41,523 bases of DNA from Alphaproteobacteria bacterium (GTDB lineage: Bacteria > Pseudomonadota > Alphaproteobacteria > UBA9219), in NCBI GenBank assembly GCA_028866275.1, contig JAGWIK010000016.1, positions 1 through 41,523 on the forward strand. Direction: 5' to 3'. The notes under the pieces are model-generated. The model was not told the origin of the DNA. It ran no database searches and saw only the letters and a list, made by a program, of their open reading frames with translations. Positions 13,792 to 15,248 of this stretch are shown here, in pieces. Numbering within the stretch: position 1 is the first letter of the stretch; each line of letters opens with the position of its first letter. Both the position numbers and the translations under genes were made by a program.

Positions 13792-14396
13792 AGGATTTCG
13801 TCGCCTCGCTCTTCACCATGCCGCCGCCGCGCCCGCGGGTGTCGCTTGACACGCGCCTGATGTCGGAACGGCTGCTGCTGCGCGCGGGCGACAGCGCGGA
13901 CTGGAAACAATGGCGCGCCTTGCGCGATCTCAGCCGCGACTATCTCGTGCCGTGGGAACCGTTATGGCCGCCCAACGCGCTGTCTTACGGCTTTTATTGC
14001 GCGCTGCTGCGCAAACAATGGCGCGACTGGCGGGCAGGGCGCGCCTTTGCCTTCACCATTTTCCTCGATACCGGAAATGTGCGCCCCGTGCTGGTCGGCG
14101 GCATCACGCTGGGCGACGTGCACTATGCTTCGGCGCAAAAAGGAACCATTGGTTATTGGGTCGGAAAACCCTATGCGGGACAGGGCATCATGACCGAAGC
14201 GGTGCGCATGGTATGCGACTTCGCCTTCGACAGGTTGCGCCTGCATCGCGTCGAGGCCAGCTGCATGCCCGCCAACGAAGCCAGCAAAACCGTCCTGCGC
14301 CGCGCGGGCTTCGACGAAGAAGGCTTCGCCAAAGCCTATCTGCAAATCAACGGCACGCGCGAAGACCATCTTTTGTGGGGCAAACGCCGAGGGTAG
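13788..14396 (+). CDS. GNAT N-acetyltransferase, RimJ-like
   Basis: This 202-residue protein has the RimJ/RimL-type GNAT fold. An LMSERLLLRAGDSADWKQW opening is followed by YLVPWEPLWP, then the beta strand GGITLGDVHY, and the acetyl-CoA loop YWVGKPYAGQGIMTEAVRM. The LHRVEASCMPANEASKTVL and RAGFDEEGFAKAYL segments follow. RimJ acetylates the N-terminus of ribosomal protein S5; the substrate here is inferred only by family. The GTG start at 13788 overlaps the M16 peptidase stop by 4 bases, so it is probably the last gene of the operon beginning at 5078. The nested-palindrome element begins 10 bases after its stop. Confidence 0.85.
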   Translation: MKDFVASLFTMPPPRPRVSLDTRLMSERLLLRAGDSADWKQWRALRDLSRDYLVPWEPLWPPNALSYGFYCALLRKQWRDWRAGRAFAFTIFLDTGNVRPVLVGGITLGDVHYASAQKGTIGYWVGKPYAGQGIMTEAVRMVCDFAFDRLRLHRVEASCMPANEASKTVLRRAGFDEEGFAKAYLQINGTREDHLLWGKRRG

Positions 14397-14405
14397 GGGG
14401 CAATC

Positions 14406-14439
14406 TAGGGTCAGGACCTATTCATTTTAAGGATTTCTG
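14406..14439. repeat. Left terminal inverted repeat of the nested-palindrome element
   Basis: The 34 bases beginning TAGGGTCAGGACCTATTCAT pair with the reverse complement of 14665-14697 (TAGGGTCAGGACCTGTTCAT and on). There are two substitutions and one single-base length difference. Confidence 0.85.
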
Positions 14440-14558
14440 TTTGCAGGAGAAGGAAAATCGGCCAGGCGACGAGCGCCGCCGTACTTTATGTACGGCAAAC
14501 GAAGTCAACCCCGTGTCGGGGCACGGGGCAGGCTCTGCCGTTTTCCTTCTCCTGCAAA
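14440..14558. repeat. Inner hairpin A of the nested-palindrome element
   Basis: The perfect 18-bp arms TTTGCAGGAGAAGGAAAA (14440-14457) and its reverse complement (14541-14558) enclose about 83 bases. Within the loop are CCGTAC-TTTAT-GTACGG (14479-14495) and CCCCGTG-TCGGGG-CACGGGG (14509-14528), both perfect stems. A transcript through it would fold into a branched stem-loop. Confidence 0.85.
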
Positions 14559-14576
14559 CCCGGAGGGCGCGGCCAC

Positions 14577-14654
14577 AATCTTTGGTGATGCGTTTGAAAA
14601 ACTTGACTGTACGCCCGGTACAGCCTGCGTTTTTCAAACGCATCACCAAAGATT
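14577..14654. repeat. Inner hairpin B of the nested-palindrome element
   Basis: The perfect 26-bp arms start AATCTTTGGTGATGCGTTTG (14577-14602) and pair with 14629-14654. The loop holds a further perfect stem, CTGTAC-GCCCG-GTACAG (14607-14623). Perfect conservation of such a long stem suggests either recent arrival or selection on the structure. Confidence 0.87.
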
Positions 14655-14664
14655 CTGACCAGCG

Positions 14665-14697
14665 CAGAAACCTTGAAATGAACAGGTCCTGACCCTA
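14665..14697. repeat. Right terminal inverted repeat of the nested-palindrome element
   Basis: This is the partner of 14406-14439. Read on the minus strand it begins TAGGGTCAGGACCTG; its first three bases (14695-14697) are the TAG stop codon of the MAPEG-family gene. Confidence 0.85.
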
Positions 14698-15126
14698 AAA
14701 CGACGCCACCACCCCGGCCAGCACGGCTATAAACAAAACCACATTGACCGCCAGCCCGATCAAAAAGCCTTTGGCGCGGCGTTTGGCCTTCTGGTAATAG
14801 CCGCGCGCATAAATGATGCGCGACAAAGCCCAGACAATCCCCATCGCGGCGGCAAAGGCATCGTCCATAGCGAACGCCGCCATCCACAAGAGCGGCAGAT
14901 GATAAACCATCTGCTCGACCGTGTTGGCCTGCACGCGCAACACGCGCTGGAACGCTTCCGGCCCGTCGGTCTGGGGGGCGGGAACCTTGTATTTATGGCG
15001 GGCCATGCTGACCCGGGCGCAGAAAAACAGGTAAATGGCAATGTCGATCAGGGTGGCAAAGCCCGTCCACGGCTTGGGCATTGTGCCGAAATCGGCGGTA
15101 AAGGCGTGCCACGGGTCGATAAGCAT
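14695..15126 (-). CDS. MAPEG-family membrane protein
   Basis: This 143-residue integral membrane protein has four hydrophobic segments and the MAPEG signature region ERxxRxxxNxxE, seen here as FQRVLRVQANTVEQMVYHLP. The family includes membrane glutathione transferases and eicosanoid enzymes; bacterial members are mostly uncharacterised. ATG 15126 is preferred because AAAGGGA precedes it. An upstream ATG at 15159 would add 11 residues without a ribosome-binding site. The stop codon TAG is formed by the first bases of the nested-palindrome element, so the original C-terminus may have been slightly different. It is convergent with the acetyltransferase gene and divergent from the secreted-protein gene on its right. 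Confidence 0.8.
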   Translation of the reverse strand: MLIDPWHAFTADFGTMPKPWTGFATLIDIAIYLFFCARVSMARHKYKVPAPQTDGPEAFQRVLRVQANTVEQMVYHLPLLWMAAFAMDDAFAAAMGIVWALSRIIYARGYYQKAKRRAKGFLIGLAVNVVLFIAVLAGVVASF

Positions 15127-15248
15127 CGGCTGATTCCCTTTGATGTAAAACAGAGACATGCTTGCGCGATTTCGCGCCAGACGGCATATTTACCGTACTC
15201 TTTATAAGGCGATTCGTGCAAGGATGCCCTGCGCGCCGTCGCCGTGCC

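Follow-up and report, generated by a model that had tools for sequence, protein, structure and literature searches.

The nested palindrome at positions 14408-14695 of the window (the whole 41,523-nucleotide stretch of alphaproteobacterial DNA analyzed here, contig JAGWIK010000016.1) is not a product of chance, and it belongs to a real, mobile and class-wide family that is MITE-like in every feature tested save an identified helper. The reading that we consider probable is that of an old alphaproteobacterial MITE-type family of non-autonomous elements, which are moved in trans by IS5-type DDE transposases and whose arms are kept matched by template switching together with selection.

Architecture of the element

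The interval 14406-14697 consists of a 288-bp element with a TA dinucleotide on either side (Table 1). Its folding energy was -112 kcal/mol, as compared with -46.3 +/- 4.2 for shuffled versions (z = -15.6; 0 of 100 shuffles were as good). A preliminary description, made from the letters of the window, had listed terminal inverted repeats with three differences, a perfect 26-bp inner stem and at least three further small stems, and all of these were recovered: the arms of the outer stem P1 (31-32 bp) differ by two mismatches and one unpaired A (14433), the 26-bp stem is S2, and the small hairpins lie at 14478-14496, 14509-14528 (within the S1 core of the window copy) and 14607-14623. The other perfect stem of that description (S1) is real but measures 19 bp rather than 18 bp.

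Two alignments show the S1 core to be conserved both within the order and in Asticcacaulis, and its mean major-base frequency was 0.80, versus 0.68-0.72 for the long arms. A conserved CTTG directly precedes the S2 apex hairpin, and in other copies the linker is closed, according to the alignment, by a short CCC..GGG hairpin. As first described, no likely protein gene was found: the ORFs that cross the element (13910-14692 on the plus strand and 14486-14887 on the minus strand) overlap both flanking genes in other frames. The element sits between convergent ORFs, a plus-strand ORF of 202 aa that ends at 14396 and a minus-strand ORF of 154 aa (14695-15159) whose stop codon (TAG) comes from the element end, i.e., the last C of the element plus the right TA (CTA).

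The 24-bp REP-like palindrome in the S1 core was missing from the element copies of other genomes. This palindrome (24-26 bp, CCCCGTGTCGGGGCACGGGGCAGG[C]) occurs as a single copy in the window; relatives have near-identical palindromes at unrelated places, apparently within coding sequence at two loci (L020 and L022) and in tandem at a third (L030).

Table 1. Parts of the window element and their positions in the window.
Feature	Position	Strand	Pairing or basis
Left TA, target dinucleotide	14406-14407	.	sequence
Outer stem P1, left arm (terminal inverted repeat)	14408-14439	+	pairs with 14665-14695
Single unpaired A in P1 left arm, 6 bp from junction	14433	+	copy comparison
Stem S1, left arm, perfect 19 bp	14439-14457	+	pairs with 14541-14559
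S1 core: CAGG..ACGAGCG, hairpin GCCGTAC..GTACGGC (14478-14496), AAACGAAGTCAAC	14458-14540	+	alignments
24-bp REP-like palindrome CCCCGTGTCGGGGCACGGGGCAGG, inserted in S1 core	14509-14532	+	comparison with other copies
Stem S1, right arm, perfect 19 bp	14541-14559	+	pairs with 14439-14457
Linker with conserved GGGCGCGGC	14560-14576	+	alignment
Stem S2, left arm, perfect 26 bp	14577-14602	+	pairs with 14629-14654
S2 apex: hairpin CTGTAC..GTACAG (14607-14623), then CTGCG	14603-14628	+	alignment and script
Stem S2, right arm, perfect 26 bp	14629-14654	+	pairs with 14577-14602
Conserved junction CAGCGCAGA	14660-14668	+	GCGCAG-type stretch nearly invariant in alignment
Outer stem P1, right arm	14665-14695	+	pairs with 14408-14439
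Right TA	14696-14697	.	sequence

Copies, insertion sites and spread

The window's own genome (2.19 Mb, 78 contigs) contained a second full copy (96% identity), a right end from a truncated copy, and the left end alone at two places (G000 C69:22580 and C28:120866); each of these two stretches, by eye, apparently adjoins the end of an opposite-strand ORF. BLAST searches of relatives retrieved two diverged copies in which the plan was kept and the stem letters were different. A covariance model built on the first hairpin (R1), searched in 33 genomes of the order, had full or partial matches in nine of them, with at most nine matches per genome, and two congeners of one carrier had no R1 match. 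At least 26 full-length copies were found in the bacterial order and its relatives, the carriers including MAGs of groundwater and other Alphaproteobacteria as well as Micavibrio sp. UBA5703 (source of two of the 26 copies), which may or may not be of the same order. Their length was nearly always 263-269 bp; the exceptions were one copy of 281 bp, one of 238 bp and the pair in the window's genome (288-289 bp), which is longer mainly because of the REP-like palindrome inserted in its first hairpin. The search of the genome and its relatives thus yielded multiple copies with compensatory change, neither a lone copy nor one whose homologs had lost their pairing. Viral contigs searched for the core pattern and plasmid records searched with five elements gave no match. 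Pattern matches in a Planctomyces record and in a short uncultured-Rhizobiales record were set aside, the surrounding architecture being absent there by eye.

Insertion was examined by joining eleven flank pairs, searching them in relatives and realigning selected matches locally. For the sister copy C13, the filled site reads CGTTA[element]TAATTTCC and the empty site in G007 is CGTTAATTTCC, with a single TA in place of the two that border the element in the filled site. Junction-spanning empty sites were also found for G030.C7 (in two congeners; the left junction falls in a stop codon), for G032.C148 (in the congener G026; a fliG-like gene lies on the left) and for G002.C4 (in G000). Thus empty sites in relatives show insertion, on the evidence of copies other than that of the window, whose two flanking genes match separate contigs in the relatives checked; the TA duplication was seen for one copy, C13.

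Across the class, a covariance model that includes the Asticcacaulis forms (R2) was searched in a sample of 385 genomes and matched in 15 of them. Several R2 loci show the P1-S1-linker-S2-P1 plan in full, their P1 sequences being altogether different, and most of these are flanked by CTAG or TA; others have the first hairpin (S1) only. Matches to such P1 ends numbered 61 in G340, 44 in G345 and 44 in G281, and comprised full, short and solo forms at the places inspected. Solo 33-bp palindromes of the form CTAGCCCGCAT-N11-ATGCGGGCTAG, i.e., one P1 arm closed by GCTAG, were frequent in G345 (L258-L265).

Pairing and the matching of the arms

The alignment of 25 copies gave 98 predicted pairs, of which 81 had changed on both sides. 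Paired cells made up 94.1%, versus 73.0% in shuffled alignments and 37-43% with slid partners, and the covariation score was 0.587, versus 0.187 (shuffled) and at most 0.137 (slid); the structure was derived from the same alignment and is favored over the slid versions for that reason, while the shuffles are free of this bias on the covariation score.

Such two-sided change and the nearly constant length are also consistent with a structured non-coding RNA or mRNA element (a regulator, terminator or processing site) that is selected on its RNA fold and spread as a by-product. The surroundings of the copies point the same way: among the 15 order-level copies with clear flanks, the right-hand gene was on the element's plus strand in 13, and codirectional cases favored the element's plus orientation by 8 to 2, both being small counts based on gene calls by longest ORF. 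This weak preference for gene-codirectional placement is the chief hint that there may be an effect at the transcript level. Frequently a copy abuts the stop codon of one neighbor and the start of the other, a placement that is also consistent with TA insertions persisting where genes leave little space between them. An RNA fold selected on one strand is expected to show G.U mispairs (G.T in the DNA) in excess of A.C. In the stems, however, G.T (69) and A.C (58) mispairs were about equal, with no strand bias, which makes a one-strand RNA unlikely and disfavors the structured RNA unit that had been offered as an alternative at the outset. In Rfam, moreover, no family reached the gathering score, the only matches being weak ones to microRNA precursors. 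We therefore regard selection on an RNA fold as an improbable explanation of the family.

The outer P1 arms differ between copies within one genome while complementarity is kept; in G032 the outer ~16 bp of P1 vary among its copies, which is awkward for a single transposase that reads sequence. In 23 of the 26 copies the left arm of P1 had one extra, unpaired base, which was A in 21 of them, T in one and C in one; across copies it stood 6-8 bases from the inner P1 end. This combination of arm letters that turn over with pairing kept, even within one genome, an unpaired base near the junction and core motifs conserved across orders would suit DNA that is recognized by structure, i.e., a folded strand or cruciform read by a recombinase or host protein, the arm letters hardly mattering. 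Integron attC sites, the model for such recognition, have little sequence conservation, a conserved fold and extrahelical bases (PMC2727003), and the element resembles them in its poorly conserved letters, conserved fold and extrahelical base; unlike them, it is linked to no integron and has a TA duplication and terminal repeats. The latter two traits fit ordinary DDE transposition, the ends are held in common with IS5-type transposons, and no candidate enzyme was at hand in this analysis, so that recognition by structure appears rather unlikely.

Several lines of evidence bear on how the arms stay matched: i) polymerase template switching has been reported to yield arm homogenization and spacer inversion (PMC8604942); ii) G030.C276 (L057), an S1-only derivative without the second hairpin, has a perfect 49-bp arm pair, and its right arm carries left-arm letters that are missing on the right in the full copies of that genome; iii) G281.C94 (L268:122-285), also without the second hairpin, has a perfect 48-bp arm pair; iv) the S1 apex of G368.C8 is inverted. 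The two derivatives suggest that arms may be matched via template switching. In both of them P1 and S1 are fused into one perfect hairpin of 48-49 bp. Template switching alone cannot explain the arms, since whole-arm copying would erase the conserved unpaired base; we propose that template switching and selection on structure act together, as the unpaired base and the core would need selection to survive.

In the reading that we prefer, a fixed plan (a ~32-bp P1 with one unpaired base, S1 with its conserved core, a GGGCGCG linker, S2 and the second P1 arm) would be propagated as follows: i) the element would insert at TA, leaving TA on each side; ii) IS5-type DDE transposases would recognize the P1 ends, to judge from the ends they share, and would cut and move the element in trans; iii) replication would occasionally copy one arm from the other by template switching, by which letters change and pairing stays; iv) selection, as conservation suggests, would hold the overall length and preserve the unpaired base along with the core motifs.

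Ends, candidate transposases and known repeats

The ends were searched as TAGGGTCNNGACTCAT with up to one mismatch, and ends of this type were found on IS5-type transposon fragments (G015, G005 and G010) and on palindromic MITEs whose interiors are unrelated (G026, G027, G005 and G019). G026 had 54 matches to TAGGGTCTGGACTCAA-type ends, its own element copies included; those inspected (e.g., L188, L189 and L197) were mostly palindromic MITEs of varied length with interiors resembling CGTC-REP dimers. An IS5-type transposon of G031, with DUF4096 and DDE_Tnp_1 domains, has inverted ends TAGGCTCAGGA on both sides, and its left end is ~90% identical over 30 bp to the P1 left arm of the window element. 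The element is thus like IS5-family (IS4/5, DUF4096) insertion sequences in its TAGG(G/C)TC..GGAC-type ends, and unlike them in having no transposase and an unrelated interior.

Terminal inverted repeats and TA duplication fit a DDE transposase, and mobilization in trans by transposases of the IS5 type is what the resemblance of the ends suggests. PF01609 (DDE_Tnp_1) had no match in the window's own genome. The helper is a putative one, because PF13340 (DUF4096) had no match in that genome or in most carriers, and in G017 and G026 only matches with an internal stop; the order-wide search among IS5-type models covered PF13340, in draft assemblies that may miss repeats. The non-autonomous mobile element of the preliminary description is supported by its several copies, TA junctions, empty sites and lack of an internal transposase, and the movement in trans is a presumed part; the nearest to a transposase gene with the same ends were IS5-type transposons of the order with similar ends, and no helper was found in the own genome.

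The link to REP-type (Y1) transposases that had been suggested there was not supported. Movement by a Y1 tyrosine transposase, as in REP/RAYT-type elements, would agree with the palindromic, largely intergenic nature of the element and with its inserted REP-like palindrome, yet PF01797 (the Y1 family) had no match in the window's genome and, among the R1 carriers of the order, matched in G030 only, and it is IS5-type transposons that have similar ends. TA on both sides together with terminal inverted repeats does not fit Y1 transposition, and the nested long stems and TA duplication differ from a single short GTAG-tagged hairpin without target duplication. We consider this explanation highly improbable.

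The resemblance of P1 to local IS ends was seen in the window's order only; at the loci inspected in G345 and G281, IS copies with the P1 ends of those genomes were not found, only 33-bp solo palindromes, S1-only forms and ordinary copies. A bolder idea, of which we are doubtful, is that of a class-wide element recognized by its folded shape (three hairpins, unpaired base and core), in which P1 may be swapped for the ends of a local transposon and fold-back copying may restore the arms.

Prokaryotic MITEs (e.g., Correia/NEMIS, RUP and ERIC) have been reviewed (PMC2229807, PMC10969869). Like them, the element is short (<500 bp) and largely intergenic, holds no gene, a transposase gene included, has terminal inverted repeats and TA termini, occurs in several dispersed copies with ends resembling those of a local IS family, and has a TA duplication with an empty site (sister C13). 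Unlike them, it packs three long hairpins, nested and conserved in architecture, into ~265 bp, its arms co-vary within and between genomes, and its core is common to different orders. No earlier description of the element was found in the literature searched (open-licence papers), and what is new relative to known MITEs is the conserved nested architecture, the co-varying arms and, apparently, the exchangeable ends.

MITEs and palindromic repeats are usually taken as decayed ISs with arms drifting apart. In contrast, this family combines near-complete turnover of its arms, pairing being kept, with a near-constant length, a persistent unpaired base and a core common to orders. It lends itself clearly to telling mutation by template switching apart from selection on DNA structure, and may serve as a model for the way in which a non-autonomous element adapts its ends to different transposases. 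The family also cautions that strong covariation, which is commonly accepted as proving a structured RNA, can be produced at the level of DNA.

CGTC-tagged REPs, common in Alphaproteobacteria, have stems of 8-9 bp and loops of 4-5 nt and form dimers inside longer palindromes (PMC3733652). By eye, several same-ended MITEs of this order are like such dimers, while the core of the element is longer and a module of another kind.

CIR repeats of Caulobacter and Brucella, as summarized from Chen and Shapiro 2003 in PMC2229807, are ~110 bp long and consist of inverted repeats and a linker, with GANTC in one loop. Going by that summary, the element is like them in being alphaproteobacterial and intergenic with inverted-repeat arms, and the first-hairpin-only (S1) forms of Asticcacaulis (~105 nt), several of which carry GAGTC, are CIR-sized. 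By the same description it is set apart from CIR by its two hairpins and outer terminal repeat, its ~265 bp and its lack of a conserved GANTC: the window element measures 288 bp and has a further stem on the outside, CIR size being confined to its relatives in Asticcacaulis, and the loop GANTC is not a trait of its family, as the window copy has one GATTC, the sister copy none, and most copies have no GANTC or have it in P1. GANTC (CcrM-type) sites, for which a link to methylation is conceivable, fall within the P1 ends (GGACTCAT) in several full copies among the 26.
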